From assembly GCA_017506865.1 (NCBI GenBank), contig JAFCMP010000106.1, forward strand, positions 1-64,000: 64,000 nt of DNA, read 5' to 3'. Source of the stretch: Tribonema minus. Taxonomy: Eukaryota > Sar > Xanthophyceae > Tribonematales > Tribonemataceae. The notes beneath the pieces were generated by a model. It saw only the letters and a list, made by a program, of their open reading frames with translations, had not been told where the DNA came from and searched no databases. Each line of letters starts with the position of its first letter. The stretch's first letter is position 1. Both the position numbers and the translations under genes were made by a program. Of this stretch, positions 7,020-61,831 are shown one piece after another.

Positions 7020-7039
7020 AAGTACGTACAACTTCGCGG

Positions 7040-12593: not shown

Positions 12594-12605
12594 AAGTACA
12601 GTACA
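12594..12605 (+). repeat. Target-site duplication, right of copy 2
   Basis: AAGTACAGTACA, identical to 7040–7051. Confidence 0.7.
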
Positions 12606-37152: not shown

Positions 37153-37566
37153 CTACCCCGCATCCCCCGAGCACTCCTCCACGTACTGTCGCGTCGATCG
37201 CTGCGCGCGCCGCGCCTTGGCGTCAACGCGCGCCTGCATGGCCGCGGCGCCGGCGCCTATCTCCGCCGACAGCCCCTGCGCACCGCCGCCGCCGCTGCGC
37301 GGCAGCAGCCGCACGGCGTTGCTGGCCATGTGCCCAACGCTGAGCGCTGCCTTGTACTGCAGCTCCTCGTCGGTTTCGCGCGAGCGGCCGAGGCGCAGCA
37401 GCGCCTGTATGCCTCCCTCGTTGGCGATGGCGAGGTGGTTGTTGAAGTTGTCTGCGAGCTTCAACAGTGCGAGCCCCGCATAGTGGCGCGGCTCCGCGGC
37501 CGTGGACATCATGGAGACTAGCGGCCGCAGCGCCCCCGCCTCGACCAGCGGCACCTGCGGCGGCGC

Positions 37567-37603
<37 letters not shown>

Positions 37604-38983
37604 GCAGAATTCAGGCATTTGTCAGTTAAATTGGCAAAATCAGTAGCAGCAGAAGCAGCAGCAGCAACAGTAGCAGCAGAAGCAGAAGCAGCAACAGCAG
37701 CATCAGCAGTATTGACGTGTTTCTCAAGGGTGACATCAGGCGGCGGCATTCGTAGAGTTGTAACACTCCCGCCATGGTGGGCTTGAGTATGGAAGGTTGC
37801 GGCAGAAACTAGGGTCAGGTTTGGATCAGTGTTGACTGCAGTGGAGCAGCTGAGGCCACGATGGCCTCATGTGGATGATGCCTGTAGCTTGTGGCGGGCA
37901 CTGCAGGGTGGAGGTTTACTCACGCCAAAGCACTCAGCCACAAAACCCTGACCAGGGCAGCGCGAACATTGCACCGCATTGGCGCGTCACCTCGACGCGC
38001 GCGCACACGTCCAACTTCAACTTCAACTTCTTCAACCTCACACTCCTCACCTTCAACAAGTTCACGTACACATCCAACATCAATTTCAATCACAACACGT
38101 GTTTCGCCCACCTGCAGCGCGTGGTTGCTGGCGAGGTGCGCGAGGCAGAACGCGGCGTACTCCTGCGCCTCCTCGTCCTCCAGCGCCGCCAGCGCGATCA
38201 CCGCGGCGACGCCGCCCCTCTCGCCGAGGTCCGCGTGGAACTCCTGGTGCTTGCACAGCAGCGCGAGCACGTACGCGGCGGCGCGGCGCGACGCCATCGG
38301 CCCCGCCGCCGCGTGCGCCGCCGCCAGCGCCACAATCCCCAGCTCCACGAGCCGCGCCAGTACTTCATCCGCCTCCGCCAGCGAACCCAGCGCGTAGAGC
38401 GCGGCGTGCGCCGTCTCCGCGTCGTCCGCGGTGGCGAGCGCCAGCAGCGGCACCAGACCGTCCTCCACCATGACGGCCGTCTTGGTGGCGGGCTCCGTGC
38501 CGAGGGCGAGCGCGCTCAGCGCCGCCGCCGCGCAGCGCTGCACGCGCGCGTCGGGGAAGCGTGCGAGGTCCAGCAGCGGCCGCAGCCCGCCCTCGCGCAC
38601 GAGCCGCAGGCGGTTGCTGACGCCGCCGACCGTTGAACTTGAACTAGAAGTTGAAGTTGCTATTAACATGTGGCCAGCGGCGGGAGAGGCGGCGGCGGCG
38701 GCACCGGCGGCGGGTTGAGCGACGCTGCGCGCGCCGCCGAGGCACAGCCCCGCAAGCGCGAGCGCGGCGTAGCGCTGGATCTCGAGGTCCGGGAAGCGCG
38801 CGAGGAAGGTCAGCGGGCGCAGGCCGCCCTCGGCAACGACGCGCAGCTTGAGGCGCGCGGGCCCCGCCGCCAGGTTGCACAGCGCGAGCGTCGCGTAGCG
38901 CTGCGTGCTCACGTCGAGGCTGCGTGCGAGGTGGAACAGCGACGGCAGCGCGCCGCGCTCCGCCATCTCTTCGCCGCAGGCAC

Positions 38984-39014
<31 letters not shown>

Positions 39015-42000
39015 GCCGTCGCCGCAGCTCAGGCACGCGAGCCCGCGCGCGGCATCGCGCTGCACGCGCGCGTCCGCGTGGAGCGCGCACGCCGCGAGCG
39101 CCTCGACGCCGCCCTCGCGCACGACGTCGAGATGAAGTTCAGGGGAGTCGGCGAGGTTGGCGAGCGCGAGCGCCGCGGCGCGCGCGACCTCGAGGTCGGC
39201 GTAGCGGCAGCACGCGAGCAGCTGCGGCAGCGCGCCGTCGCGCACCATCTGCTGGCGGTTCTCGTGGCTCAGGGAGAAGCTCGCGAGTGCCGCCGCGGCG
39301 GTGCGCTGGTAGTCTACGAGCGGCGACTGCGCGAGCGCAAGGAAGGGCTTGACGAGGCCGTCGCGCACGACGCCCACGCGCACCTCCTGAGGGGGGGGGT
39401 AGGTATGTATGCGGGGTATCGGGGGGGGCGTGTTCAGTGGTTGTGTGTCGCGCACGACGCCCACACACACTTCCTGGCGGGGGGGGGGGGTAAGAAGGTA
39501 CATAAGCAGGGCATAAAGGTATGTGGGAATGTTCAGCGGTTATGTGTCGCGCACGACGCCCACGCGCACCTCCTAGGGGCGGGGGGGTAGGTAGGCATGC
39601 AGGATATGCGGGGGGGGGGGGGGACGTTCAGCGGTTGCATGTTGACACGCGAGGTCGGTGTACTTCAGGTTTTGTGTGCGCGCCTCAGCATGCACGTCAG
39701 GGAGCTTTTAAGAGGGGTTGAAGATGCTTCATGCGCAGGCCAAACTCGACGCACCAATACGGTGTATGGTGCGTCGCACCTGGCATTCCCTTTCATATAC
39801 TCAATCACATCATGCTCTCTGAAGCTTGTCTGCCTGTTCTGCTGTTTCTGCTCGCTAGTACAGCAGTTATGACAGCATGACATGGTAGCCTGCCTCAATT
39901 CGGCAACCAAGACAGCACTTTCTCAACGTTCAAGCATGCAAGTCTTCTAAAAAAGTCGAGCATTGATCTTCAACAGTGACGCACCGGATTGCTGCACATG
40001 AAGCGCAGGCCGAACGCCGCGTAGCGCTGGCACACGTCGTGCGGTGACGCCGTAAGCCCAATGAGCGCTTTCATCGCGCCTAGCCTGTACAGCAGCGTGT
40101 GCAGGTCGGCGTTGCTGCTGAGGTTGGCCAGGGTGCGCGCGCAGTCCTGTTGAACTTCGGCGTTGTCGGCGCGCGCCAGCGTCGCCAGGGCTTGCACGGC
40201 GCCCTCTTCCACCATGATGGCCTGATGCACGAAGCAAGAGAGGCATAGGGTCAAGGATGCGTGCATGTGCGCTTGTCGGCAGGCTGCTCTAATCTACTGT
40301 TGGCAGCCGCGCGTATGCAACATGTTGGGTTTGTTGAAATTTGAGTTGCAGTTATCGGTGCGCACCAGCTGCTGCAAGCGCTTGCACGGCGCCCTCTTCC
40401 ACCATGATGGCCCGATGCACCGAGCAAGATGGGGATTGAGTCACGGGCAAATCTGTGTACGAGTCATCGATCCAGTCATGCTTCATGTACATACATACAT
40501 ATAGGCGTGCTTGTGGTCAATGTCAGTAGTAGGGTAAGTAACCCTGATGGTACCCTATCCACAAAGTGCGCATCAAGCTGTGAGTTTGATGAAGTCTAAG
40601 TTGATGAGAGTACATGGCGACCACCACGCCGCCTCGAATCCTCAACTGACAAACTTCAAACTTTCAATCATCTTCAGCTTGAAGTCAGCAACCGTACGCT
40701 GAGGTTGGCGAGCGTAAAATGAAAACATAACTTGCAATTAGAAGTAAGCAGCAAGGTACCTGGTTGCCGTGCTCCTCGCTGAGATTGGCGAGCGCGCCCG
40801 CGCACTGGCACTGCAGGTCCTCGTTCGCCCAGCGCACGCAGCGCACGAGCGGCCGCAGCGCCCCCGCCGCCACGCACGCCGCCTTCAGCTCCTCCGCCAG
40901 CGACAGGTGCCGCAGCGCCGCCGCCGCCAGCACCTGAAGTTCCACCTCCCTCTCCAGCGCGAGCGCGACCGCCGCGGCGACGCCCCCCGCCGCCGCGCAC
41001 TCTAGCTTGTGCGCGGGGTTTGCAGACAAGTCTCGGAGCGCAGTGGCGGCCTGAACGCGCGTCTTGAGGTCGCGCGCGCGCAGCAGCGCCACGAGCGCGC
41101 GCAGCGCTCCCGCGGCGCACAGGCGCGCGTGCGCCGCCGTGTTGGGCGTGAGCTTGCGCAGCGACAGTGCGGCGTGGTACTGGCACTCGGCGTCGGGCGC
41201 GGAGGCGAGCGTGACGATGCCTGGCAGGCCGCGCTCCACGACTGCCGCCTGTGATTCAATAATGGGGGGGGGGGGGGGGGGGGATGTCAGTTACAGCGAG
41301 GGTTCAGTCAGGGCACAATTGGAATGAGGGGCAAGGCCAGGTTGAGGGTGAATACGTGGTACTGGCACTTGACGGTACGACAATGACGGCCGCCTACAAT
41401 TGACGATGGGGGGGGGGGGTCAGTGCTCATGGCTCGTGCCTTAGGGTTGAAGTGAGGTTCTGTTGAGGTCAGTGCTGTGGCTGGTATAAGAGCTAGTATA
41501 AGCTAGGGTGACGAGTGGTACTGGCGCTCGGCGTCGGGGGCGGAGGCGAGCGCGACGATGCCCGGCAGGCCACGCTCAACAATGGCAAACCCTACTAGTA
41601 AGTAGCAGTAACCCTACATGCCTCACCTGTAGCTCCGCAGACGTGAGCAAATTGCACACAGCGCGCGATGCCTCCCGGTACATGTCGAGCGCTGCTGCCG
41701 CCGCCACTGCCGCCTCCCCCTCCCCCCCGCCATCGCCGCCGCCGCCGCCGCCGCCTATCACCTTGGCGTCCATAAGCGCGACCAAGGCTTCCGTGCCGCC
41801 TTCCGCGGCAATGCGCGCATGCGTCGCGGGATCCTCCGCAAGGTTGGCGAGCGCGCCGATGGCCTGCCGCGCAGTCTCCACGTCGCCGCCGCCGCTGCTG
41901 CTGCTGCCGCCGCCGCCGCCGCCGCCGCCGCGCGCGAGCGCCACCAGCGCGGGCACGCACGCGTCCGCCAGCGCCGCGCGCTGCGCCGGCGCCGCCGCGC

Positions 42001-42048
42001 CTAGCGTCAGGTTGCAGAGGCACGCCGCCGCCTCGCGCCGCACCTCGG

Positions 42049-42079
<31 letters not shown>

Positions 42080-45000
42080 AGCGCCTGCGGTGGCGGCGGG
42101 AGCGGCGGAGGCGCCGGCACGCGCCAGCGCCGCGAGCGCGCCGCCCTCTATGAGCTTGGCGGCGTTGACGGGGGCGGCGGCGAGCCTCCTGAGCGCTGCC
42201 ACGCCGAGGCACTGCGCGTTGACGCTGGGGCTGAGGGCGAGCGCGACGAGCGGCGGCACTGCGCCCTGCGCGCCCAGCGCGTCGAGGTAGTCGGCGTTGG
42301 CGGCGACGTTGGCCAGCGCGAAGGCCGCGAACTCGCGCACGTCCGGAGGGGATGCTGCCGCCGTCGCGAGTGCGGCTAGCGCGGGTAGCGCGCCGCGCGT
42401 CACAAGGTGGCCATGGTTGCAGGCGTTGGCGGCGAGGTTGCCGAGGGCCATGAGCGCGTGGCGCGCGTTGTCGGGGTGGTGCTCTGAGGAGAGCGTCATG
42501 TCGAGGATGGGGAGGAGGCCGCCGTGCACCGCCACCTGGCAAGGGGGGGGGGAGGCAGGATATGGGTGGTGTGTGGTTGGGGTAGGCAGGTACGGAGTTA
42601 TGGGTGTAGGTATAGATGGACATGAGGATGTGGTAGGCAGGTATAGAATAACAGGTGTGGGGTAGGCTAGTACAGAGTATGGATGTCCCTTAGGCAGGTA
42701 TGGAGCACGGGTATGCAGCACTCCCAGACGGAATCTGGTCCTTTTTGTGCTCGAGCAGCACCACGCAAAGCCGCACCGCCAATTGTTGTGTTCAGCTCGG
42801 ACAGGCAGGAGTGGTGCTCTGCGGAGCAGGGCAGAGTGGAGCCTTGACTCTAACCCTAGCCCTAACCCTAACCCAAGAGACCGGCTTTGGCAGTGCGGCG
42901 CAGCTGCACAAAGGCAGTTGCGAAGCTGTTTGGCGGAGCTTAGGGTTAGGGTTAGGGTTAGCTGAGATGCAGCATACCTTAAAAGCCCTGGTGACCCTGA
43001 TTACTACGGGCCATGTAACGTGTCATGCCGCTCCTAAGTGCCCCAAATCTCTGACCCTCACCCCACGTTCTACCATTATTGCAACTTCGGGAGCTACATC
43101 TCTGAGAAGCAGCAGAGGTCACTCGCAACGGACATAGCTCAAGCACATGATGAAGCTCTAACAATTCAAATTCAAAGGCCAGTACCACCATGAACACGCC
43201 GCCACCAACCGCCGCTCTAACCCCAAAGCTTGACCTAGCCATAACCCTGACCCTAACCCTACCCCTACGACCGCACGGCGTGTTCCTCTCAAAAGCAGCA
43301 GCGCGCGCAGCCCTACCTGCGCCTGCGTCGCCACGCTGACCGCCATGTTGCACACCGCCGCCGCCGCGTACGTGCGGCAGTCCACGTCGTCGTCACGCGT
43401 GAGCGTAATCGCCGCCTGCAGACCGCCGCCGCGCGTCGCCGCAGCGCGCGTCTCCGCATTCGCCGCCAGGTTCGCCAGCGCCATGACCGCAAAGCGGCGG
43501 CAGTCCACGTCCGCGCGCCGCGTCAGCGCCACGAGCGCTGCGCACACGCTGCCGCCGCCGCTGCCGCCGCCGCTGCTGCCAACGCTGCCGACGCTGCCGC
43601 CACTACCGCCGCCGCCGCTGCCGCCGCTGCCGCCGCCGCTGCCGCCGCCGCTGCCGTGCGCCGCCATCGCCGGCTGATTCGCGGCGGTGCAGGACAGGTT
43701 GTACAGCGCCAGCGCGGCGGCGCGCTGCACCTCCACGTGCGCCCCCGTCAACTCTCTGGCGCCGGCGACGCCGCTTCCGCCGCTGCTGGTGGCATCGCTG
43801 CCGCCGCTGTTTTCATCGTCGCCGGCGGTGGCGAGCTTGCACAGCGGCGTCAGTGCACCGGCCTCGACGATGGCCACGCGATTGTGCCGGTGGCACGCCA
43901 GGTTGGACAGCGCCATCGCGGCGAAGCGCGTGAGGTCGGGCTGCGCGGGGCCCAGCGACGCCAGCGCCACCAGCGGCAGCAGCCCCCCCTGCTTGACCAC
44001 GTGCAGCTGGTTGGCGGGGCATGTGGCCAGGTTGCATAGCGCCATCGCCGCGTAGCGCTGCGCCAGCGCCATGTTCTCCAGCCCGCCGCTGCTGCTGCCG
44101 CCGGCGTTGCTGCCGCTGCTGCTGCTGCTGCCGCCGTCGCCGCGCCGCTGTGCGGCCGCCAGCAGCGCAATCAGCGGCGGCAGTCCGCCCTGCGCCGCGA
44201 TTGCCGCCTTGCAGTCCTCGTGGCTGCTCAGGTTGCAGATGGCCATGGCGGAGAAGCGCGCTGCATCGAGATCAAAAGACGCCGGCTCCTCCCCGCCTGC
44301 TGCCGCTGCCGCCGCCGCCGCCGCTGCCGCCGCCGCATCGAGGGCCGCGGGCGCCGACGGCACGGCCGCGTCTGCCGCCGCGCGCTGCTGCTCCTGCGTT
44401 GCCTCATCTGTAACTTCATTTTGAAGTTGAAGCAGCGCGGCCTCGCTGCCGCGCAGCAGCGCGACCAGCGGCGCCAGCGCGCCCGCGGCGAGGACCGCGG
44501 GCTGCGCGTCGCCGAGGGCGCTGAGGCGTGCGACGGCGCGCGCGGCGTAGCGGCGCACGGACGCGGTGCCGCCATGCAGCGCGGGCACGAGCGCCGCGAG
44601 GCCGCCCGCCGCGACTATCGCCCTCTGGTTGCGTGCGACAACGGCCAGGTTGCCGAGCGCCATGCACGCGTCGCGCGCGCAGAGCTCCTCCTCCGCCGCC
44701 TCCGCTGCCGCCGCCGCCGCGCCACTGCCGCCGCCGCGCGCCGCCAGCGACAGCAGCGCGCCCAGCTCCACGGCGCCGAAACAGCCGACCTGGCACTCGG
44801 GGTTGGAGGACAACGCCGCGAGCGCACGCGCGCAGTCGGCGCGCACGCCCTCGTCGGCGCTGCCGCTCAGCGCCGCCAGGCGCGGCAGCGCGCCGCCGGT
44901 GACCGCCGCCGCCTGGTTGCGCGGCTCGTCGCAAAGGTTGGCCAGCACGCCCGCCGCCTGCGCGACCGTGTCCAGCCACAGCGCAGGGCCCTCGCTGAAA

Positions 45001-48000
45001 GCGGAGTCCTCGGCAGCAGCTGCTACCGCGGCGGTGATCGCCGCAGTATTTGCAGCAGCAGCAGCATTGTCCGTAGCGGCTGCTGCAGCACCGCTACTGG
45101 CATCGTCGGCGGCGGATTCCGCTGCCCTAGCATCAGCGGCCGGCCCTGCCGCCGCCGTTGCCTCACGCGCAGCGCTGCCGCCACCGCCGCTGCTGAGCGC
45201 TTCCAAGCAGTCGTCCAGCGCTGCCAGCAGCGGCTCCAGCAGGCCCTCCTCCGCGGCGGCGCGCTTGACGCGCGAGTTGAGCGTCAGGTGCCGCAGCGCG
45301 CCGAGCGCGAGCAGCCGCAGCTGCGCGTCGTCGCCGCCGCCGCCGCCGCCGCTGCCGCCGCCGACGCGCGCCGCCGCCACCAGCGCGCGCAGCCCGCCCT
45401 CCGCCGCCACCGTCGCGCGGTGCTCGGGGCGCGCGCACACGTCCAGCAGCGCCGCCGCCGCCTGCCGCCGCGTGGCGCCGTCGCGGCCGCCGAGCAGGCT
45501 CAGCAGCAGCGGCAGGCCGCCGCCGCTCAGGAGGTACGCGTGCGTGGCGGCGGCGGCGGCGGCGCACGCCTTGCGCAGGATGAGCGTCGCCGCGTACTGG
45601 CACTCGGCGTCGCGCGCGTGCGCCACCTGCGGCACGCTGCGCATGCCGTCCTCCTCCACCCACAGCGCGACGCCCGCCGGCGAGGACATGAGGTTGGCGA
45701 CGCAGCGGGCTGCCTCGCGGTGCACCGCAAGCGCGCGCGCGCGCATGAGGTAGACAAAGTAGTGCATGGCGCGCGCGCCGCCGTCGCCCAGCAGCGGCGG
45801 GTGCGCGCCGGCGGCGTCCTCCGCGCAGTTCGCCACGGCGCCGCAGGCCAGCCGCGCCGTCTCCACATCCGCGCTCTGGCAGAGGCACATGAGCGGCGCC
45901 GCTGCCGCCGCAGCAGCAGCGCCATCTGCGTCATCAGCAGCAGCGCCGCCGAAGCCGGGCGCGCACGACAGCGCGACCGCGCGCTTGCACTCCGGTGGCA
46001 CTGAGAGGGCAAAGAACAGCCCCGCGCACTCGCGCGCCATCTCCGCCGCCGCCGCCTCCGCGTCCTGTGCGCGCACGGCGGCGCCGCCGGCAGCGTCGGC
46101 GCGCGGCTCCAGCGCCGCAGCATCCGCATCGAGCGCTGCTGCATCGAGCGCTGCTTGTGCGGGCGCGGCGGCGGCAGCGGCGACGCCGCCGCGGCACACC
46201 GCCGCTAGCGCCCCCTGCTCGATCGCCTGCAGCACGCCCGCCTCGACCATGTCTATCGCGTTGTCGGCGACGCCGGCGAGGTGCCGCAGCGCCGCCGCCG
46301 CCTGGTCCAGCAGGTCGCCGTCCTCCGCCGTCGCGACGACTTCGATGAGCACCGGCAGCAGCGGCGCCGCCGCGTTGAGCGCCGCGTCGCCGTGCTGCGC
46401 GAGCTTTGCCGATGCGAACGCCGCGTTGAACGCCGTCTCGTCGTCCTCCACAAGCAGCGCGGAGGCGAGCGCCGCCACGATGCCGCCGCTCAGCAGCTGC
46501 GCGTGGTGGCGGCGTGCGCGCGCCGCCGCCAACTGCCCCGCTGCCAGACACGCATACCTTCGCGCTGCCTCATCGTAGCCGAGCGCACGCAACGTGTCAA
46601 CGTCGCGCTCGACATCGAGCCCTTCCTCACCGCCGCCGCCGCCGCTGCCGCCGCCGCTGCCGCCGCGCTCCTCGTCGTCGTCGCTGTCGTCATACAAGTT
46701 CGTGCACGCGGCAGCGCCGCGGCCCGCCGCGAGCCTGCACAGCGGCGCCGCCGCGCGCGCCGCCTCCAGCGCGGCGTGCACGCCGTCGTCAGCGCTGCCC
46801 GCCAGGTTCGCCAGTGCGAGCGTTGCGAAGCGGCACACCAGGAAGTCCTTGCGCGCCGCCGCCGCCGCCAGCGCCGCCGCCGCGCCCGCGGCCAGCAGCG
46901 CCGCGTGCATGTCTGCGTTGGCGGCGAGGTTGGCGAGGCAGCGCGCGGCCTCCCGCTCCAGGGGTATGCGGCGGCGCTCGCCGTCGCCGCCGCTGCCGCT
47001 GCGCGCGGCGGAAGCGTCCGCAGAGGCGGCGGAGTGGTCCACCAGGAAGGGGGCGCAGACGCTGGCGACGGCACCGGCGACGCTGCCGATCCGCGCGTGC
47101 GTGAGCTCGTTCTCGCTCACGTTGGCGAGCGCTGCCATGGCGTGGCGCACCGCGCGCGCATCCACCCCTGTCGCCAGCGCCACCAGCGCCTCCAGCGCGG
47201 CAGTGCCAGGCCTCCGTACCGCCGCCGCTTCTGCCGGTTCTGCCGCTGCTGCCGCCGTTGCCGCTGGCGCAGCGCTCTCCGCCCGCTGCGCGCCGCTGCT
47301 GCCCGGTCTCTTGCCCCTGGCGGGCGGTTTCGCGACGCCCGCCACGTCCAGCTTGTTGAGCTCGTTGAGCGCAGCAGCGGCGATGCCGCGCGCCGCCTCG
47401 CGCCGCACGCGCACCGCGGCGCCGCCGCCGCACGCCGCCGCCGCCTCGAACGCCTGCAGCGCGCCTGCCTCCACGGCGGCGCGGCGCAGCCGCGGGTCCG
47501 CGCAGACCGCGCGCAGCGCTGCCGCCGCCGCGAGCTGGTCCTCTGCGTCATCGCTGCCGCACGCGAGCGCGATGAGCGGCGGCAGGCCGCCCTCGGCGAC
47601 GACGGCGGCGCGGCGCGCGGGGTCGGCGCACAGGTTGCACAGCGCGTACGCGATGCAGCGCTGCGTCTCGAGGTCGGCGGCGGCGTCGGCGACGGCGACG
47701 AGCGGCGCGAGCGCGCCGCCGGCGGCGACGGGCGCGCGGTGCGCGGCGTGCGCGGCGACGTTGCCGAGCGCCACCGCGCCGAAGAGGCGGAAGGTGAGGT
47801 CCGCGCTGCAGAGGAAGGAGACGAGGTGCTCGACGTCGACCGCACGTAGGAACGCCGCGGGATTCGCGCCTACGCAGCCCGTCAGGCTCAGGTTGCACAG
47901 CGCGGCGAGCACCTCCATCTGCACCTCGACGTCGGCGCTGCGGCTCAGGCGCAGCAGCGGCGGCAGCGCGCCGCAGCGCACGATGGCCTCGCGCAGCGCC

Positions 48001-51000: not shown

Positions 51001-54000
51001 CCTAACCCTGAACCTGACTTTGACCCTGAACCTAACCCTCAGCCAGCAGTGCGCAGCTCTCACCGTCTTGTGGTCGCTTACGCGCCTTGGGGTCAAGCGC
51101 CGCCGTCGTCCCTAACCCTAACCCTAACCCCAATTCTAACCCGTAATCTAACCCTAACCCTCCCTTAGCCCTCAAACAACAGTGCTCAGCTCTCACCGTC
51201 TTGCGGTCGCTGCGCACCGCAGCGTCGAGCGCAGCAGTGGTCTTCAACCTTAGCCTGATCCTAACCCTAATCCCAACCCAATCTCAAGCCTAACCCTAAC
51301 CCTGATTGTAACCCTAACCCTGAATTCAAGCCTTACCCTCATCTACTTCTTCTGAATCCTTCTCACCGTCTCGTGGTCACTGCGCGCCTTGGGATCCAGC
51401 GCCGCCGTCGTCTCGGCAGCCACCGCCTCCAGCAGCCCCGCGCGCAGCAGCCGTGGCTGGTTACGCACGTTCGCTGCCAGGTTGCACAGCGCCATGGACG
51501 CCATGCGCTGTGCGGCGAAGGCGGGGGCATCGCCGCTTGAAGTTGAAGTGCCGTTCTTGTCGTCCGCGCCGCGCGCGAGCAGCGCCATGAGCGCCGGCAG
51601 CGCGCCCGCCGTGCGCAGCACCATGTCGCCGTACTCCAGGCTCGCGCACAGGTTGCCTGTGCGGCGGATAAAGTTGCAGTTGAGGTTAAATCTTGATATT
51701 ATGTCTAGAGGCATTAAATGCTTGTGGTGGTGGGATTAAAGTTGAGGTTGATGCAGGTATTTATGTATCAGATGCATATGTGGTGATGTGTAGTGTTACA
51801 CAGATGCGCCATGTCGCCGTACTCCAGGCTCGCGCACAGGTTGCCTGTGCGCCGGTTGAAGTTGAGGCTGAGGTTACACTTGATGCGTGCATGTTCAACA
51901 CGATGCTTGTGGCGATGTGCACCGTATGATGCACATTCGCACTCCAGGCTCGCGCAGAGATTGACTGCGTGTTTGACGTTGTGTTGAGTGGAGAATGCAC
52001 ACACCCAATGTACAGAATGCACAGACTACAAACGGATTGAAGCATTAGTGTCAATGCACCCTGTGTCACTTCTACTCTAAGCTCAAGCACAGGTTGCCTG
52101 CTGTGTCAGAGGCTGGGTAGGGCATCAGCGGTTCATACTGAAGACTCTGGGGCCAAACGTAACTGCCTTACCCCTAACCCTTGTTATGCCCTCGTCAGGG
52201 TTCGCCAAGAGCAGCATGTGTCGAGCGTTGCTATGACCCTGAGAAACTGCAATCGCCGCCGGCAGTTGCACTTTCATTACTAACCGTGACCTGTGGCTTG
52301 AGCTGCACCTGCTATCCCACTGGCTGCATCGCCAGCACTGCTATGCTTTCATGACAAAACACTTCTGCTGGTCTCATGAGCCAGCCCTGGACTTGACTCC
52401 TCTGTTCTGTACAACAGAGACAAACACGGTTCGAACGGCAACTACGAAAGGTCAACAGCAGCCAAGCCACCGACTCTAACATCACTACTACCAAGCGTCA
52501 AACAACGCAGTTGATGTGCACTTCACCATAACTTCAACTCTGGTACGTCACCTAGTGCACGCGCGGCCTCCCGTGCGACATTGCCGGACCCCTCGCCGAT
52601 TTTGCCAGTTTCACCAAGTTTGCCAGTTTCGCCGAGTTCGCCAGTTTCGCCACCGCCGCTGCCGCTGCTCGCTGCCGCGTCGTGACTTATGAGCGCTGCC
52701 ACAAGGGCGGGTATCGCGCCGGCATCGACGATGCGGTCCATGTTTTCGACGACTTCGCAGAGGTTGGCGCATGCACATGCTGCCATGCGTGCTGTGGCGA
52801 CCACCGGTGACCGTATGGCGGCGACGATGGCCGCGAGGCCGCCGTATTTGGTGATGTTCACCTTGGGAGGGGGGGGGGGGGGGTAGGATTAGGGTTAGGG
52901 TTAGGGTTAGAGTTAGGGTTATGGCAGAAGCTCGGGTCTCACAAGGTGCGGTTGTTGACGATGGTAAGTGTGGTCCAGACGCAGCAAATGCGTGGCGTCG
53001 CCGTTCATAACATATGCCAGGACAGGCAGCCACCAGTTGAAGGTTTAGGGTTTAGGGTAAGGGTTAAGGGTAGCTACTAGCCCTAACCTAACCCTTACCC
53101 TGACCCTGACCCTGACCCTGACCCTAACCCTGACCCTGACCCTAAAGTGGTTGACCCACACCACACAGGCAGCTTCAGTTTACAGAGACAATGAGTTCAG
53201 ACACACATCACACCGTTCACCTTGTCCTCATAGGCAGAGCACAGAGAGCACATGCGTCATGCTGCCCCTCCCATTCTTGCAGGCGCACGGAAGCAGCTCA
53301 AATGCCGGCAGAACAGCATAGTTGCTGCGCATACATACCATTCCTAATCCTAACCCTAACCCTGTTCAGGTGGTCTCGCCGGCAAAGGACAGGCGCGCCT
53401 CACAGGCTAGTAGCAGTAGACCTAGAGTTAGGGTTAGGCCTAAGGATCAGGTTAGGGTAACGCCGCTCACGGGGCTAGGGCTAGGGTTAGCGTTAGGATT
53501 AGAATCAGGGGCACCTTGTCCTCCTCGGTGAAGGAAACGGACGCATACCAGCGCACATACATAGTACGTCACAACGTGTCACACAGGCAGAGTCACTACA
53601 TACATAAGCCCACCTTGTTATCCTCAGCGAAGGACAGTGAACACAGGCATGCATACGAGTGCGCACAGCACTCCACAAATGTCACACAAGCAAAGCCGCT
53701 ACATACATACGCCCACCTTGTTCTCCTCGGCGAAGGACAGTGAGCACAGGCACGCGAGCGTCTCCCTCTGGATCTCCGGCTCCTCTGTGCGCGCCAAATA
53801 TAATACAGGCTCCAGCCCCCCCTCATCTGTAACCTGCTGGCGTACGTCGGCATTCTGCCCGACCTTGACTAGGGCGTAAGCCGCGTACTGGCGGACTTCC
53901 GCATCGGAGGCGTTGCTGAGGCTGATGAGCAGCGTCAACATGCCCTGCGTAGCGCGGCACGAGGCATTAATAGGGCAATGCGTGCGCGAGTGAGCAACGC

Positions 54001-57000
54001 GAAAGACGCATCATAATGGCTTGCGGTGTGGTGTAAGGCGGTGACAGGGCAAGGTGCCTGTGTGTGACCAAGGGTGATGTGGAGTCAGTATGCTCTGGGT
54101 AGTGCGGTGTAAGGCAGCAACAGGGCAATGGGTGCGTGAGCAAGGATGGCAAAACGTGATGCAGCATCAGCGCGCTGTGACGCGGTGATGCAAGGCAGCA
54201 CCGTGTGTCAGGTTGTGCACGGTGCACCGACGTGAAGGTGCACCATCAGCTTGCCCAGTGGCATGGAATAGAGCGAGGCTACATGTGTCGCAGTACGTGC
54301 GTCGTGTGCTGTCGGCGGCGGTGCTTGCGCGGAGCAAACCGGCTTCGAACTTGTTGCGTTGGCGAGGCTGCCGCAATGCAACGCAATGCCAGCAAACTCA
54401 AGTGACACTTCAAGTTCAACAACAGCGAACCGGCGCGGCTTCACAATTTGTCACGTTCGCGATACTGGTGACGAGCAAATGAACCTCAAACCTAAGTTGG
54501 CTTGCCCTGCAATGCAATGCAATGCCACCAACTTTTATCAAAACTTCAAGTTCAACTTCATCGTCATCCAGTGCCAAGATACGCCCCCTTCTGACCTGAG
54601 GTTACGCCCGCTTCTGACCTGAGGTTAGGCATGACATGACCACTTTCAAGTGAAACTTCAAGTGAAACATCAAGTTCAACTTCAGATGCGACCTCAGCCA
54701 TGATCTCTGTGCCACCCTCAATAGTCATTGTATGTGTTGCTCCCTGATTTAAACTACAATTGCTGACTCACCTGACCCTTTTCTGATTCCCAGCTGACTG
54801 CCCCACCTGTAATCCATATTTAAGCCTTGCTGGTGCTGAAACAATGTGTATTAGGTGCCAAGGCTATGGCGGTGCCAAGTCGATGGCGTTGGCTGGAATT
54901 GGACATGCCCCTGGCATGTCCAATATCCAGCACTGACTGCGCACACTCGCTTGAGTGTACTCCGTCTGGAGCCGACCCTACCCCTACTCACGGTGACAGC
55001 TTCCTTCAAGTGGCTGAGTGTAGGTTTAGGTTTCTTGTCGCCAGAACAAGGATGAGTACAGCTGAACAGCTGCGACCTTCATAGCCCGGCGTGTCAGACA
55101 TTCTGCAGTAGCGCCAAGCTGACATCTCACATTGTAAAGCATCTCTCAGCGCGGCCCATTGGACCCTACCCCTCCCTCGACCCTAGTCCAGCTCTAATCC
55201 TACCCCTAACCCTACTCCTGACCCTAACCCTAATTTCCATCCTAACCCCTCTAGTCCAACTCCCTTTGGACCATACCTACTATATCTACATGCTCCTCCA
55301 CAAAGGTCCCACGCATAATACAGCATCTCTCGTCGCACCCACTGGACCCTTACGCTTTCCTTAACCCTAGCCCCAGCCCTAACTTCAAACCTGACCCTAA
55401 TCCTAACCCTAGCCCTGGCGCCACTGGACCAAACCTACATACCTCTTACACAAAGGCCTCGTGATTATCTGCGCAGCTCGCCAGATTCGCGATGGCCAGC
55501 ACCGCACAGCGCTGCACCTCCAGCGCCAACCCTAACCCTAAACCCTAGCGCTAGCCTAGCCCTATGCGACAATACCTACATACCTCTTCCACGAAAGCCC
55601 CGTGATTGTCCGCGCAGCTGGCCAGATTTGCAATCGCCAGCACGGCGTAGCGCTGCACCTCCAGCTCGACCTCGTCGCTCCGCGCGAGCGCGCACAGCGG
55701 CTCCAGCGCGCCCGCCTCCATCATGGCCACGCGATACGCGTCGTGCGTGCAGAGGTTCCCCACGCCCAGCGCCCCCACGCGCTGGCACGCCACGTCCTGG
55801 CTCATGAGGTAGGAGATGAGCAGCTGGTGGCCGCCGCCGCGCAGCACCCCATCCGTAAACGCGGCTCCCGCGCACACATTCGCGAGTAGCCGCCCCGCCT
55901 CGCGCTGCACCTCCACGTAGCGGCTGCGCATGGCGGCGATGGCGGGGCGCACGCCGCCCTCGCGCGCGATCGCGGCCTGGTTGTCGGGGAGCTCCGCGAG
56001 GTTGGCGAGGCACGCGGAGCACTGCGACGCGACGGCCATGTCCTCGCGCTGCATGAGGGAGATGAGCGCGGGCAGGGCGCCGCCGCGGCACACCTCGTAC
56101 TTGTTCTCGTCGCTCACGGACAGGTTGCAGAGCGCCGCGCACACCTCGCGCAGGATCTCTATATCCTGGGCGCAGGGCGGGAAAGTGGTGTTTTCTTGTG
56201 TTACGTCGATATCTTGTACTTCAGAAAGCAGTGTTTGCTGCATCTGCACCAGTGATTGCATTATTGCGTTGCAGTTGAAGAAGTACGCAATTTGAGTGAG
56301 AGGCAGAGCGCCGCGCAGACTTCGCGCAGGATCTCAATGTCGTGCGCAGGCAGGGCGATTAACGGGAAAGCGGCGTTTTTTGGTTTTGTTACTTCAATAT
56401 CGTATACTTCAAAGTACCTGGCAGTACCGTAAGATAATGTATGATGGTAGGGGTGGTGCAAGGTGTTTGCGTCGTTACGGAGCAAGTGATGGGTTGAAGT
56501 AGTGCAGTTGAAGTGAGAGGCAGTGCTCAGCGCACACTGCTGCGCAGGGTCTGAACGTCCTCACGCGCTGGCACGGTGCGCTGTGAGTGGTGTTGTCTTA
56601 ATGGAAGCAGTGCCCATCACACTGCGCTTTCTAGCAGTCACCATACATACAAAGATCAAGCATACAGATATATATAACGTACTGAAGCACGCGCAGCCAC
56701 AATACCCAGCCCCCCCCCCCCTCCTCTCTCTCACCTCACCAACCAGCAGCTGCACGAGGGGCTCAAGCCCCCCCTCCTGCACGATTTTGACTTTTTTTTG
56801 CAACAAGTAAACCTCGAGTGCATTGCTGATTTACACAACAAGTACTGAAGTATCCTCGAAGCTACTATCATACGCCCCCCCCGCCCCCCCCCTTTCCCTC
56901 CTCTCACCTCGCTAACGAGTAGCTGCACGAGGGGCTCCAGCCCCCCCTCCTGCACGATCTTGACCTTGTTCTCGCGCGTCGTCGACAGCCCGCGCAGCGC

Positions 57001-60000
57001 CGCCGCCGCCTGCTGGTGCACATCCGGATCGGCGCTGTGCGCGAGCGTAATCACCGGCTGCAGCGCCCCCTCCTCCATCATCAGCGCGTGATTCGCGGGC
57101 GCGCAGCTGAGGTTCGCAAGCGCGCACCCTACGTAGTACTGCGATACGGCGTCCGCGCAGTTGCTCAGGCTGAAGAGGGCGGGCAGCGCGCCCTCTTCTA
57201 GCACCGAGGCGTGGTTGGCGAGCGTCGCTGTGAGGTTTGCGAGGGCCAGTACGGCGTAGCGGCGCGCCTCTAGCTGAGCATCTGATGACGCGGCGAGCGC
57301 GACCAGCGGCCGCAGGGCCCCCGCCTGCACGATGCGCACCTGCAGGAGGGGGGGGAAGGGGGGGGGGGGAGGCGGGGAGGTGTGAGCCGTTACAAACGGT
57401 CTAGATTATGTGCGTTGGAGGACCAAGAGAGAGAGCAAGGCTCAGATGGGGGGGGGGGGCGAGGGGGGGCGGGGGGTGAGCCCTTACAAACGGTCTACAG
57501 CAGTTGCGTTCGAGGACCAAGAGAGACAGTATTGCTCGAGGGAAGGGGGGGGGGGGGGTAAAGCGGAAGCTGATGAAGAAACTGGTGAGAATACGTAGGT
57601 ATATTGGGTACTGTGCAGGCATCTAATTGAAACGGCGGTGACTTAGTTGAACTTGAATGCCAGGCGGAGAGGACATGCCTGACTGCCACTGTGAAAAGGC
57701 ATCTGTGAGGGTACTGTCAAGTCGCTATCCTGTCTGTCTTTCCAACTCTGTAACGCACGGTGGCGCGTAATCTGCCGCCCCTGTGCACAGAGGGTCCCGT
57801 GCTGTCAGAAACTTCAAGCATGTACATAGATACATACCCATCCTCCTGAGCAATGCCACACACCAGGCGCAGACAGAGGTCCGGCAACTGGTCTCTCACG
57901 CCGTGCCAACCTACCTGCCTCCCTCGTGTCTCTCTATCTGACAAATCATATCTGCACACGCCCGCCTCGCAAACCGTCATTGCCATGTTGGCCAGGCACA
58001 GCAGGTTGGCAGTTGAGTTCTTGCGCCATCATCAGCATACATGCCTAGCCTGTTGTACGCGGTAGTTAACATGTCGCACCAGTGCTCACGCCCATGCCAA
58101 ATACGTACCTACCCAACTGTACTCGACTGAGCGTTGCCACACACCTGGCTCACGACCATCGTGGCCATGTTGGCCAGGCACATATACCTACCTGCCCTCC
58201 TGACCCTAAATAAACATACCTACCTACCCTACCCTACTCGACTGAGCGGCGCCACGCACCTGGCTCGCAACCGTCGTGGCCATGTTAGCCAGGCACAGCG
58301 CGGCGAACCGCTGGCAGTTGATCTCCCCCGTGCCCAGCGCCTCGACCATGGGCGCCAGCGCCCCCTCACGCAGCACCGGCTGCTGCATGTCAGGATTCGC
58401 GGCGAGATTGGCAACAGCGCGCACTGCCTCTTCGCGTGAGTTAAGATCCGCGCCGCGTGTGAGCGCGATCAGAGGGGGTAGCCCCCTCTCTTCCAGTAGG
58501 CGTGTGTGGAGTTCGGTCATCTCGAGGAGATTCGCGAGGGCGCATGCGGCGTGGCGCTCCACTTCGGGGTCGCCGCAGATGATCATGGCGATGATGTTGG
58601 CGATGGCGCGGTCTGCAATCTCCATCTGTGGGGGGTAGGGTAGTTATTTAATGTATACATTAGCGGTGTGTGCATAGGTATGGCATTCGAGGGTAGGTTA
58701 CAGTGTAATAATGTGGGTCGCCGCAGATGATCATGGCGATGATGTTGGCAATGGCGTGGTCGGCAATCTCCATCTGTGGGGGGTAGGGTAGGTAGGGGAT
58801 GGAAACACGTTGTTGTATGTAGGTATCGTATGGTGAAAGTGATGATGTTGACGTTGGCGCGGTCCGCGATCTCAATCTGTGGGGGTAGGGCGGGTAGGGT
58901 ATGTGCGCACATGCACCAGGGGTATGTACGGTATAAATACGCATGCCATGGCATGTAGGTTATGGTACGGCAGCAGTGCTGCTGGCGATTGCGCTGTCCT
59001 CAAACCTTATCTGAGAGAAAACATACGGTATGTACAACGCAAGCGGTAGCATCCGCCACGTTCCATATGCGGTGGCGAGGGAGTGTAACAGCGTCTCACG
59101 TGGGGATGGCCTAACCGTTACCCTAACCCCAACCCTAACCCTAAGAGTTGCCAGCCAAGCGACCAATGTTGACTCTGACCCTACCCCTGACCCAAACCCT
59201 CATCCACACCCTCACCAGCCCCCCAGCGCTATTCTAACCCTAACCCTAACCCTAACCCTACGCATGTGCAACGTAGCAATGGCCGCTGAGATGCACGCAA
59301 AGTGACGCCAACACTATTCCTCTGAGTGTTGATGGCATGCCTCTAATCACTGATGATGTGACGTCTCTGAGCAATGATCACTCCTCTGGGCAGTGATGCA
59401 ATGCCGCTGAAGCCGTGGTGGTGGAATGGCTCTGAGCAGTGACGATGGGGGATGTATGTGAGCGATTACTCTGAGCACTGACACAATGCCTCTCAGCAAT
59501 GGTAACAGGATGTCTCTGAGACCTGATGAGTTTCCTGGGTGTGTGTGCAATGATGTGACTCCTTTGAGAACTGCCGCAATACCTCTGAGCACGGGTGGGT
59601 TTGTTCCGTGCAAATGATGCAACTCCTCTGAACACTGACGCAGTGCCTCTAAGCAGCGCAAACAGACTTGCTCATGGCATGCGCACCAGAGCGCCACTTC
59701 ACAAACCCAGCACACACCTTGCCGCCCTCCACGACGCTCAGGCAGTCGAGCGTTGATTTGATCTCTACAATCAAATTCGACAAACATACGTACCAATGTC
59801 CCCTCTCATGCATGGCGCTGAGGCAGTTGAGCGTTGATGCAATTAACCTCAGCATACTTACGTACCTTGTTCTCCTTGATGGCGTTGATGCAGTTGAGCG
59901 CTGATGCAATCAACTTCAACCCTCATACATCCATCCATATGTACCTACCTTGTTCTCCTCCATGGCGCTGAGGCAGTTGAGCGCTGATGCAATTTCCCGT

Positions 60001-61831
60001 AGCAGCTCCACATCGTCGGAGCGCGCCATGAGCACCAGGGGGTCCAGAAAGCCGTCCCTCACGACCTGTATAAATTTGAAAATGAGGTTTGATAGCGCGA
60101 TCAAACAGAAGTGACGTACAGTACACCGTCATGGTGGTGCAGAGGAACCAGAAAGGCGTCCCTTACAACCTGTTCAAGTGAACAGAAGTAAGAGTTCAAA
60201 GCATGGTGAACTACAATTCATACCTGCTAATTCAATGGTGTGCGTCAGAGAAGCAAGCAGAGGTCGTGTCCTAGGCCGAGATGCATAAAATGACCTGTGC
60301 AGCAAACTTTAACAACATCATCCACTTCTCACTGTTGCGGCCAGCTCTCTGCACCTGTTCTAATATGCTGATGTGTTGCTCCAGCAGGACTTGGCAGAAG
60401 AGAGTGTTTTTGGTTATGCTGAATCGTCACCTACACCGTGTCAGCTACCTCATCAGCACAGAACCTATTGCACTGTGCGCCTGTGCTTGGTATTACAGCG
60501 ACTTCCCCCTCCCGTCCGCTACTACAGACACCCATCACGCAATATTCTGCAAGCTGAAGAAGTTCACAGGCATTACTGATGCACAATCGTTGTCCGCCTA
60601 CACTGCATCAGCTGCCTCATCAGTACATTACATATTGCACTGTCCCTGTGTACGCTCTTCTATGGCGATTTCCCCCCCATGCAACACCCTCAACATCTAT
60701 CGTGTGATCCTCTGCAAGCTCAAAGCCAGCGGCGCTGCCATATGGCGAGCGCGCCGAGTATATATGCAGTGCTTAGGATTAGCAGCGCTTGTGGCTCGTA
60801 TGGCCACTTGAGCACTGACACCACATGGCGATGACATTCAACATAATCGCTAAGTGTGCCAACATGTGACAAGATATTGACCCCCTCTTGCAACACTTGC
60901 ATGCTTTTCCTGCTCTGAGCAAGAGTGAGCAGAAAGTACCGACACTAGTGCAGCGCACCTAGGCTCAGCAGAACTGACAAGGTATCCTAGCATGGATGGC
61001 CGCACTGCACATACATACATACCTGTACTCTGTATGCAGGCGATGTGCTGAGCGCTGCTGCCGCGCATTGAGAGGTCTGTTCAAGCCGCCGCAGCAGACA
61101 ATGAATCACTGCCACTTGCAGTTTGCACCTGCGCTCTGCCTCAACTTCACACAATTAGCTGGTGTCAATGGGTAATCGCACCACAGTACACATGCATATG
61201 TAGTGCGTACCTGTACTCTGTACGCAGGCGATATGCACATGCCCCTGAGCGCTGCCAGCGCCTGCCGCTGAGCGTTGAGATCCTCGCAGCACGCCAGCCC
61301 CACCAGCGCCGGTATCCCTCCCTCCAGCGCAATGTTCTCCCTGTGGTTGGCGTTGGCGGCCAGGTTGCTGATGGCGAAAGCTGCGTATCGGCCACTCTCC
61401 GTATCCTCCGCTTTCAGCAGCGTGACCAGGGCGGCTATGGCGCCGGACTTGACTATCTCTTCGTGGTTGTCGGGCTCTGCGGCCAGGTTGCCGACGGCCA
61501 TGGCGCAGTACTGTCTGACTATCAGGTCTGCATCTTCGTTTTTGACGAAGCCGATGAGTGGCTCCAGCACACCGTCCTCTACTATGTGCGTTCGGGTGAA
61601 GATGCTGCTTGCGCAATTCGCAATAGCAAGAGCACAAAATCTCTGTGCCTCAGCATCTTGAGAGCGACGCAGTAGGTCCACCACCGTTCTAACGCCCCCC
61701 TTTTTTACTATTCTGTCATGCAGCTCCTCGTGTGTGCTGAGATCAGCTAGGCCGAAAGCGACCTCCTTCTGCTCTCGAGGCCGCTTCACTCGCCTGCCTT
61801 TGGCAATCAAGGCCTCGAGCACCTTCGCCAT
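37153..61831 (-). CDS. Giant Armadillo-repeat protein, about 4,333 residues, 15 exons
   Basis: Exons: 61831–61211, 60065–59949, 58625–58260, 57339–56908, 56165–55584, 53944–53717, 52861–52552, 51656–51367, 50255–49941, 49745–43317, 42535–41627, 41248–40760, 40221–39985, 39386–38112, 37554–37153. All join in frame; every intron is phase 0 except the one joining GCACTAG to GCAACCTG (RALG|NLCASLEY), phase 1. The start GCCACCATGG is a near-ideal initiation context. The whole product is Armadillo repeats, for example FCALAIANCASS, RYAAFAISNLAANANHRENI, GGIPALVGLACCEDLNAQRQ, IVREGGLEPL and RYAAMALCNLATCPANQL, at about 41 residues each, implying roughly 100 repeats with Ala- and Gly-rich spacers. 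There is no signal peptide, membrane span or catalytic domain. The nearest well-known relatives are Vac8-like ARM scaffolds. Role inferred: very large protein-binding scaffold. Confidence 0.87.
37568..37608 (-). repeat. (CTG)n tract in place of a pyrimidine tract before the last ARM exon
   Basis: On the plus strand this is (GCA)n. On the gene strand it reads CTG repeats followed by CCGCGCCGCCGCAG at the acceptor. Confidence 0.6.
39387..39635 (-). repeat. Copies of the 5' edge of ARM exon 39386–38112
   Basis: The word TCGCGCACGACGCCCACGCG plus poly-G, marking the acceptor and EVRVGVVRD start, is repeated near 39450–39490 and 39546–39590. A bare poly-G acceptor remnant follows near 39608. Confidence 0.75.
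40378..40435 (-). repeat. Copy of the 5' edge of ARM exon 40221–39985
   Basis: It repeats 40203–40250 (GCACGGCGCCCTCTTCCACC core and the acceptor side) with few changes, inside the upstream intron. Confidence 0.75.
41262..41590 (-). repeat. Copies of the 5' edge of ARM exon 41248–40760, with poly-G runs
   Basis: A copy at about 41511–41590 matches 41176–41250 (ACTGGCACTCGGCGTCGG core). A weaker copy lies near 41354–41400. Poly-G runs at about 41264–41283 and 41406–41418 mark the acceptor pyrimidine tracts. Confidence 0.72.
42536..43316 (-). repeat. ARM intron with GTAGGCAGGTA minisatellite and telomere-like tracts
   Basis: A GTAGGCAGGTATAGAGT-like unit recurs about four times at 42580–42715. 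CCCTAACCCTAACCC lies at about 42845–42872, (TTAGGG)3 at about 42938–42960, and CCCTAACCCTACCCC at about 43248–43268. Confidence 0.6.
43317..49745 (-). other. Single 6.4-kb ARM exon (2,143 codons)
   Basis: Uninterrupted frame from acceptor AAACAG (ATCGTGCGCGAG) to donor GCGCAG/gtaggg. It carries about half of the protein and almost all of its Ala/Gly-rich inserts. An AACTTCA…TGAAGTTGAAG word sits in frame near 44409–44430. Long plus-strand frames across it are antisense shadows of GCN-rich codons. Confidence 0.8.
50277..50315 (-). repeat. Copy of the 5' edge of ARM exon 50255–49941
   Basis: GTCAGCAGGCAGTAGCGCA and the following poly-G repeat 50236–50270. Confidence 0.7.
50670..51245 (-). repeat. 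Five intronic copies of the 3' edge of ARM exon 51656–51367, interleaved with CCCTAA tracts
   Basis: The exon end coding TTAALDPKARSDHETV, with its donor (authentic at 51361–51416), recurs at about 50670–50723, 50784–50838, 50934–50982, 51058–51110 and 51191–51245. Each copy is followed by degenerate CCCTAA-type repeats. Some still encode near-identical peptides (TTALEAKARSDHETVR). Confidence 0.85.
51246..51346 (+). repeat. Interstitial CCCTAA array in an ARM intron
   Basis: Degenerate CCCTAA/CCCTGA/CCCAAC units run continuously between an exon-edge copy and the authentic exon end. Confidence 0.75.
51810..52105 (-). repeat. Copies of the 5' edge of ARM exon 51656–51367
   Basis: The NLCASLEYGDM-coding edge with its acceptor (authentic 51622–51689) recurs at 51810–51876 almost unchanged, and degraded near 51936–51966 and 52072–52100. 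Confidence 0.82.
52106..52500. other. ARM intron stretch with nothing recognised
   Basis: No exon copy, ORF or repeat could be assigned beyond isolated CCCTAACCCTTG near 52172. Confidence 0.35.
52864..53155 (+). repeat. Poly-G and interstitial telomere-like arrays
   Basis: A poly-G run at about 52867–52883 is the acceptor tract on the gene strand. (TTAGGG)n follows at about 52886–52921, then TTTAGGG-type units near 53044–53070, then a CCCTGA/CCCTAA array at about 53080–53145. The strand of the repeat switches within 200 bp. Confidence 0.78.
53215..53712 (-). repeat. Copies of the 3' edge of ARM exon 53944–53717 with CCCTAA tracts
   Basis: The donor and the LCSLSFAEENK-coding edge (authentic 53710–53765) recurs at about 53605–53665 and 53508–53560, with weaker traces near 53365–53410 and 53217–53260. 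Telomere-like tracts lie at 53343–53366 and 53424–53510. Confidence 0.75.
53960..54205. repeat. Degenerate tandem repeat in an ARM intron
   Basis: A roughly 75-bp unit with AGGGCAATGCGTGCG and GTGTAAGGCGG words recurs about three times. Confidence 0.5.
54395..54690. repeat. Cluster of CTTCAAGTT words in the longest ARM intron
   Basis: ACACTTCAAGTTCAACAAC, AACTTCAAGTTCAACTTC and AACTTCAAGTGAAAC occur within 300 bp, together with a short tandem repeat at about 54585–54625. Confidence 0.6.
54691..55140. other. ARM intron stretch with nothing recognised
   Basis: It holds only a short palindrome around GGACATGCCCCTGGCATGTCC near 54901. No exon-like sequence is seen. Confidence 0.35.
55141..55568 (-). 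repeat. Copies of the 3' edge of ARM exon 56165–55584 with CCCTAA tracts
   Basis: The authentic exon end (55572–55665) is repeated at about 55436–55530 and, weaker, at 55270–55330. CCCTAA-type arrays fill 55160–55255, 55355–55410 and 55530–55560 between them. Confidence 0.8.
56166..56560 (-). repeat. Copies of the 5' edge of ARM exon 56165–55584
   Basis: 56290–56420 repeats 56120–56240, covering the acceptor, the DIEILREVCAAL-coding edge and about 70 bp of adjoining intron. A third, worn copy lies near 56525–56565. Confidence 0.8.
56712..56800 (-). repeat. Copy of the 3' edge of ARM exon 57339–56908
   Basis: It repeats 56895–56970 (AGCTGCACGAGGGGCTC core, donor included) and still encodes VKIVQEGGLEPLVQLLV. 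Confidence 0.8.
57340..57570 (-). repeat. Tandem intron unit with poly-G runs
   Basis: A TTACAAACGGTCTA … GAGGACCAAGAGAGA unit followed by a poly-G run occurs twice (57390–57460 and 57480–57560). Confidence 0.7.
57955..58255 (-). repeat. Copies of the 3' edge of ARM exon 58625–58260
   Basis: The CATGTTGGCCAGGCACA-coding edge with its donor recurs at about 57960–58010 and 58125–58185. The leading CTCGACTGAGCG is also duplicated. Confidence 0.78.
58700..58900 (-). repeat. Copies of the 5' edge of ARM exon 58625–58260
   Basis: The acceptor and MEIADRAIANI-coding edge (authentic 58570–58640) recurs at about 58709–58795 and 58838–58890. Confidence 0.82.
59100..59262 (+). repeat. Interstitial CCCTAA array in an ARM intron
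   Basis: Two blocks, about 59118–59145 and 59230–59258; the second is near-perfect (CCCTAA)5. Confidence 0.78.
59346..59935 (-). repeat. Array of decaying copies of the 3' edge of ARM exon 60065–59949
   Basis: The GCAGTTGAGCGCTGATGCAA edge (authentic about 59950–59995) recurs at about 59870–59910, 59808–59843 and 59738–59762. It continues as a degraded CTCTGAGCACTGACGCAA repeat back to 59346. Confidence 0.75.
60120..60175 (-). repeat. Copy of the 5' edge of ARM exon 60065–59949
   Basis: The GTCCAGAAAGCCGTCCCT segment with its acceptor is echoed as ACCAGAAAGGCGTCCCTTAC near 60147. Confidence 0.65.
61010..61082 (-). repeat. Copy of the 3' edge of the first ARM exon
   Basis: CCTGTACTCTGTATGCAGGC and the following GAGCGCTGCTGCC repeat 61210–61260, donor included. 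Confidence 0.75.

Follow-up and report, generated by a model that had tools for sequence, protein, structure and literature searches.

Decaying copies of exon edges in the introns of an ARM-repeat gene of Tribonema minus suggest frequent short tandem duplication

Introduction

In potato, a tandem duplication across an intron-exon boundary of RdRp made a new intron (Ma, Lan, Niu 2016, PMC4974935), the single published case of a junction-straddling tandem duplication that we found. Intron gain has also been attributed to tandem duplication of exon sequence containing the proto-splice site AGGT (Lehmann et al. 2010, PMC2891723), in a paper that cites 1901 duplications in fly lines, with a median of 367 nt, 624 of which include some exon sequence. 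Introners are repeated sequences carried in introns and shared between them (PMC9860276), and direct repeats of 4-30 bp at or near both intron borders have been read as insertion scars (Rogers and Bendich 2025, PMC11782384). Fill-in at staggered breaks has been shown to produce small, homology-independent tandem duplications (Schimmel et al. 2021, PMC8355091). Here, we analyse a stretch of 64,000 nucleotides of the xanthophycean alga Tribonema minus (GCA_017506865.1, contig JAFCMP010000106.1, positions 1 to 64,000; hereafter the window), in which the introns of an ARM-repeat gene contain copies of the edges of their own neighbouring exons.

As in the potato account, the duplications described here cross the intron-exon boundary and carry the splice signals along. 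The potato report concerns a single event, whereas here duplication is serial and affects many junctions of one gene as well as other genes; moreover, where potato gained an intron, the surplus here appears simply to be skipped. The Tribonema case is the same kind of event, many times over: local repeats are direct and close (161 direct against 6 inverted pairs), and in 26 of 32 copies the unit combines exon with intron sequence. Junction-straddling duplication is frequent here. Likenesses to the other systems are partial. The AGGT model, like our case, involves short tandem duplications that take in exon sequence and splice sites. Introners likewise place repeated sequence in introns, although the copies studied here resemble the exon adjacent to their intron and not foreign introns. 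The repeats of Rogers and Bendich resemble ours in being direct and in surrounding intron borders. The fill-in work deals with mouse and human cells, induced breaks and short (<100 bp) insertions. No report of serial junction duplication was recognised among the literature matches listed, in which subscription journals are thinly covered. We propose that the copies very probably arose by frequent tandem duplication of about 60-400 bp, filtered by selection on exons; this range leaves out one of the 32 copies kept for analysis, which lies 1217 bp away.

Results

Copies of exon edges in the introns of the ARM-repeat gene

The ARM-repeat gene occupies 37155..61879 on the minus strand and has 15 exons (A-O) and 14 introns in the window. 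We compared 90-bp exon edges (28 probes) with their own intron, using as controls 60 dinucleotide shuffles for each probe, the reverse strand and the 13 other introns; low-complexity pairs were left out of all self-comparisons. Copies of the adjacent exon edge were found in 11 of the 14 introns at z≥4.4, which confirms the original prediction of at least 11. At a stricter threshold (z>6), 13 of the 28 probes were positive, covering 10 introns. At that threshold no match was obtained with the reversed own intron (0/28) or with one random foreign intron (0/28), and exon centres (from exons of at least 270 bp) matched their own introns in 1 of 22 cases. At z>4, 15 of the 28 real probes were positive, as compared to one reversed, one foreign and two exon-centre probes. 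Introns I-J, J-K and N-O yielded no exon-edge copy with 90-bp probes. The weakest case is the A-B acceptor copy (z 4.4), which scores 18 where one foreign intron scores 19. Shuffled introns do not score equally; hence, the copies themselves are real. They lie close to their source in direct orientation and match the adjacent exon specifically.

In total, 29 copies lie inside the 15 intervals proposed in the original prediction and one lies outside them (50457-50492); every interval holds at least one copy that scores above all 60 shuffles. Two other statements were too strong. The maximum found at one junction is five copies instead of six, and to call the introns filled with copies is an overstatement, as 1252 of the 11677 intron bases of the gene are exon-derived.

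Exon-edge copies and a related duplication in the ARM-repeat gene

61023..61048, minus strand, exon A tail copy, then donor-like GT; identity 0.92
60140..60169, minus strand, exon B head copy after AG, weakest case; identity 0.80
59866..59910, minus strand, exon B tail copy; identity 0.91
59804..59854, minus strand, exon B tail copy; identity 0.86
59726..59757, minus strand, exon B tail copy; identity 0.84
58830..58876, minus strand, exon C head copy after AG; identity 0.79
58715..58773, minus strand, exon C head copy after AG; identity 0.95
58145..58182, minus strand, exon C tail copy, homology continuing 44 bp into the intron; identity 0.89
57966..58002, minus strand, exon C tail copy; identity 0.89
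57358..57557, minus strand, tandem duplication of intron C-D only, period 94, no exon part; from self-comparison
56735..56797, minus strand, exon D tail copy; identity 0.87
56520..56552, minus strand, exon E head copy; identity 0.79
56303..56341, minus strand, exon E head copy; identity 0.90
55386..55524, minus strand, whole tandem unit with 82 bp of exon E tail and 57 bp of intron; spacing 141 bp, contiguous with its source at 55527-55665
53614..53652, minus strand, exon F tail copy, a unit of ~100 bp being repeated in intron F-G; identity 0.90
53515..53545, minus strand, exon F tail copy; identity 0.81
53221..53255, minus strand, exon F tail copy; identity 0.77
52073..52097, minus strand, exon H head copy; identity 0.84
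51938..51963, minus strand, exon H head copy; identity 0.88
51806..51844, minus strand, exon H head copy after AG; identity 0.97
51197..51243, minus strand, exon H tail copy with donor-like GT; identity 0.72
51064..51110, minus strand, exon H tail copy with donor-like GT; identity 0.87
50948..50983, minus strand, exon H tail copy; identity 0.83
50789..50835, minus strand, exon H tail copy with donor-like GT; identity 0.83
50677..50723, minus strand, exon H tail copy, donor GT lost; identity 0.79
50457..50492, minus strand, exon I head copy, outside the earlier intervals; identity 0.75
50292..50311, minus strand, exon I head copy, AG lost; identity 1.00 over 20 bp
41501..41580, minus strand, exon L head copy, 341 bp upstream of the real acceptor, intron-side homology not found; identity 0.85
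40351..40411, minus strand, exon M head copy, AG lost; identity 0.87
39546..39572, minus strand, exon N head copy after AG; identity 1.00 over 27 bp
39447..39473, minus strand, exon N head copy after AG; identity 0.89

By eye, degenerate units of 25-30 bp are seen at 59346-59700, beyond the recognisable exon B copies; they may represent a minisatellite derived from a copy of exon B.

The exon boundaries come from a hand-built model in which all introns are GT-AG, a single reading frame stays open across the exons and 13 of the 14 introns are in phase 0. A gene finder seeded with this model and retrained on the genome sample described below placed all 14 introns at identical boundaries; because of the seeding, this agreement is a consistency check and not independent proof. 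Pfam Arm (PF00514) was matched by exons A, E, K and N, the four exons of the gene among the six stretches scanned; the remaining two stretches, on the plus strand, gave no match. A protein search with exon I, aimed at paralogues for intron comparison, returned four places, all of them exons of the same gene.

Exons of the ARM-repeat gene (hand model)

61879-61211, minus strand, exon A; true start not fixed, the gene finder gives 61831
60065-59949, minus strand, exon B
58625-58260, minus strand, exon C
57339-56908, minus strand, exon D
56165-55584, minus strand, exon E
53944-53717, minus strand, exon F
52861-52552, minus strand, exon G
51656-51367, minus strand, exon H
50255-49941, minus strand, exon I
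49745-43317, minus strand, exon J
42535-41627, minus strand, exon K
41248-40760, minus strand, exon L
40221-39985, minus strand, exon M
39386-38112, minus strand, exon N
37554-37155, minus strand, exon O

Many introns of the gene appear by eye to share one position in the ARM repeat, immediately following an N-K/Q-like codon pair, and AAG|GT or CAG|GT recurs there. This position could be explained either by introns gained independently at a proto-splice site or by their spread through duplication of the repeat.

The copied units extend into the intron

Thirty-two copies (13 in the ARM gene, 19 in other genes) were tested for homology beyond the exon, 3 of 35 hits at z>6 having been dropped as lying 15-51 bp off the junction. 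The extension was anchored at the copied junction, run into the intron and compared with the genuine flanks of about 40 other donors or acceptors. Intron-side homology exceeds these flanks in 26 of the 32 copies (10/13 in the ARM gene, 16/19 elsewhere), contrary to the earlier impression that only the junction is copied; against random intron positions, it does so in 28 of 32. The copies reach 21-147 bp on the exon side and 0-199 bp on the intron side, where the method has a ceiling of 200 bp. Their ends scatter on either side of the junction, and this end-point test speaks largely against a process aimed at splice junctions in general.

Identity is 0.87 on the exon side and 0.72 on the intron side in the 29 of 32 pairs with at least 15 bp of intron extension. 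By our own arithmetic, squaring the one-sided decay predicts about 0.76 for the intron side. A better-kept exon half is to be expected of a fixed exon and two decaying intron copies, and it explains why the eye sees only the junction as copied. Exon and intron reach add up to 75% or more of the spacing in half of the copies (16/32), and decay may hide the remainder. The intron-only duplication at 57358..57557 is the same kind of event as the exon-edge copies.

The copies behave as passive sequence

Splice dinucleotides were counted in 67 of 78 copies, the others being alignments that end over 6 bp before the junction is reached. GT is retained in 28 of 38 donor copies, where overall identity predicts 27.2; among 29 acceptor copies, 20 retain AG, against a prediction of 20.9. 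The spacing of the 78 copies modulo 3 is 22/27/29, with no preference for multiples of three. Hence, GT and AG decay at the neutral rate and the copies behave as passive sequence.

The claim that the copy nearest the exon is the freshest holds as a weak trend when copies are ranked by identity. The nearest copy is then the most similar at 7 of 9 multi-copy junctions in the ARM gene (3.9 expected, p=0.03), at 9 of 16 in other genes (6.5 expected, p=0.15) and at 16 of 25 overall (10.4 expected, p=0.02). When ranked by number of matches, the nearest copy is best at 12 of the 25 junctions and no trend is seen.

Local duplications and junction copies elsewhere in the genome

The source genome measures 158 Mb in 554 contigs. 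Our sample of 304 kb combined the window with 20 random 10-kb stretches, drawn from 20 contigs, and with a further 40 kb, of which 20 kb adjoin the window; 84 kb of the sample thus belong to the window's own contig. Within 450 bp, 161 direct and 6 inverted repeat pairs were found in this sample; 94 of the direct pairs are noncoding only, 58 are part exon and 9 are exon only. The 200 kb of random stretches gave 118 direct against 7 inverted pairs within 1500 bp, 42 of the direct ones in a single stretch (L021), with a commonest spacing of 100-200 bp.

Apart from the ARM gene, all gene models are predicted, and junction probes there exclude exons shorter than 60 bp and introns shorter than 100 or longer than 9000 bp. 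In these genes, 22 of 233 junction probes were positive at z>6, against 2 with reversed introns, 2 with random foreign introns and 0 of 98 exon-centre probes. The 22 matches correspond to 20 of 131 predicted introns; two of the matches, in a doubtful model, are 51 bp away from the junction. Four proteins from loci with junction copies all matched Pfam families: UPF0029 with PIG-H (apparently a fused model), lipase, RrnaAD (rRNA adenine dimethylase) and Rpc34 (an RNA polymerase subunit). The duplication process is thus genome-wide within the 304-kb sample, and junction copies occur in unrelated genes.

Junctions compared with intron interiors

In other genes with confident models, 12 of 112 junction probes were positive at z>6, as compared to 31 of 397 probes from intron interiors (p=0.34). 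Dropping simple-sequence probes gave 3 of 44 and 16 of 304, respectively (p=0.72), and weak models gave 9 of 111 and 37 of 437. A forward simulation with uniform tandem duplication, deletion and substitution and a fixed exon (donor side only, 12 shuffles a test) was run at five rates and produced junction-to-interior ratios of 0.75-1.38 at z>5. Where genes had not been selected for the pattern, junctions are therefore not special and fall within the range of the neutral simulation. Duplication of exon interior inside the exon was detected with 1 of 52 probes. The ARM gene is richer in copies than other genes at junctions and interiors alike.

Other features of the window and the sample

Telomere-like TTAGGG tracts are present, mostly in introns, at 42848-42963, 50727-51305, 52883-53145, 55216-55541 and 59121-59261, among others. 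When up to 2 mismatches are allowed, the window contains 37 matches, some of which overlap, and shuffles contain none. Across the sample, such tracts amount to about 10 per 100 kb, with none in predicted exons. They overlap 10 of 152 duplication pairs where 7.5 are expected (p=0.19), so no link to the duplications is shown. On the plus strand of the window, a predicted coding stretch at 1683-17175 looks by eye like a reverse transcriptase of the non-LTR (non-long terminal repeat) type, with two near-repeated blocks; the model contains stops. Two broken nuclear fragments of plastid rbcL were also seen (L002, 1501-1689; L003, 1501-1650). Among solved structures, a piece of the L002 fragment best matches nine rubisco chains, which form a group clearly separated from all lower matches and which we take to be red-type (form ID); the fragments suggest a red-lineage plastid.

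Discussion

Frequent tandem duplication filtered by selection on exons would work as follows. Short DNA stretches, usually of about 60-400 bp, would be duplicated in tandem throughout the genome. A duplication straddling a donor would yield the order exon, donor, intron, exon tail, donor, intron; if the first donor is the one spliced, as we infer, the mRNA is unchanged and the duplication would be tolerated and probably fixed neutrally. At an acceptor, the mirror case would apply, with the last site used. Duplications wholly within an exon would alter the protein and mostly be removed. The surplus exon edge would then decay as neutral intron while the exon stays fixed; with the exon as an unchanging reference, copies would be recognisable long after the intron half has blurred. 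Each new duplication would land beside the exon and shift older copies outward. The original prediction of a recurrent, directional, local process thus stands as regards recurrent and local copying in direct orientation. Its directionality needs no special machinery: whenever an exon edge is duplicated in tandem, the new copy comes to lie in the intron, immediately beside the exon. The enzymology may be that of polymerase slippage or, where breaks are staggered, of fill-in and end joining. Replication slippage is another route to short tandem duplications. Of the causes proposed earlier, slipped or break-repair synthesis remains a fair class, and copying from reverse transcripts is not supported. 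Microhomology at unit ends was not readable, as only 4 young and roughly contiguous pairs were found.

Several observations weigh against this explanation. Fresh copies are scarce: among pairs of at least 75% identity, those of at least 95% number 2 among the 54 part-exon pairs (~9 expected) and 6 among the 76 noncoding ones (~13 expected), a shortage that rapid loss of identical tandem copies, assembly collapse or a past burst could each explain. In half of the 32 copies, the reaches leave more than 25% of the spacing uncovered, and 6 of the 32 show no intron-side homology above controls, notably the K-L copy of exon L, 341 bp away. Within the ARM gene itself, junctions exceed interiors: 8 of 14 against 9 of 45 with simple-sequence probes dropped (p=0.015), 12 of 26 against 20 of 74 with all probes (p=0.09), and 10 of 16 against 6 of 25 in a separate run at z>5 without simple probes. 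The simulated junction fraction never rises above 0.29, as compared to 0.46-0.63 in the ARM gene. This excess is the basis for suspecting that the splice-junction DNA of some genes here is a true tandem-duplication hotspot, beyond the effects of selection and detectability, which we consider unlikely. The corresponding mechanism, breaks or template switching that favour exon-intron boundaries (at a nucleosome edge, an R-loop or a composition step), would account for an ARM junction fraction above every simulated rate. However, unselected genes display no clear excess and copy ends scatter on either side of the junction, which leaves junction targeting with a low probability. Moreover, the ARM gene was picked for its pattern, so its junction excess is biased upward and is suggestive only. 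If the hotspot existed, transcription or chromatin at exon edges would drive intron growth from the edges inward.

The remaining alternatives fare worse than tandem duplication under selection. Many copies still carry GT or AG, as would be expected if they were retained as decoy or back-up splice sites or as alternative exon ends, but this retention equals the neutral expectation and the spacing keeps no codon frame; a function of this kind is very improbable, and decoy sites kept above the neutral rate are rejected as far as sequence can tell. Decayed whole-exon duplications that have lost their middles would fit the exon origin of the copies, some of which reach 80-147 bp into the exon. The exon-centre control, with matches to own introns at z>6 in 1 of 22 ARM probes and 0 of 98 others, largely refutes this idea, to which we give almost no credence. 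Equally implausible is reverse-transcribed copying of spliced or unspliced RNA: we found no supporting point for it, copies across exon-exon joins not having been systematically looked for, and most tested copies include intron sequence, in direct orientation and near their source. Exon-edge probes matched one random foreign intron at z>6 in 0 of 28 ARM cases and 2 of 233 others. On intron content, orientation, closeness and this foreign-intron control, we reject copying through reverse transcripts. The same counts show no introner-like sharing of exon edges, whole-intron families not having been searched; introners are rejected as well, since each copy corresponds to the exon beside its own intron. 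If introns were born by AGGT duplication, one would expect, as described in PMC2891723, an intron start resembling the head of the downstream exon and an intron end resembling the tail of the upstream one. This signature was seen in 0 of 116 introns at an identity of at least 0.55 in an ungapped 40-bp test, which a fully decayed old origin could escape, and we reject this origin too.

For annotators, such introns come with a warning, as they hold many plausible false exon ends. Since the exon serves as a fixed reference, each decaying copy gives the age and the length of one duplication. The copies may thus act as a recorder from which one could measure, in one genome, how introns grow, how splice sites are lost under neutrality, and at what rate and with what spectrum short tandem duplications arise.

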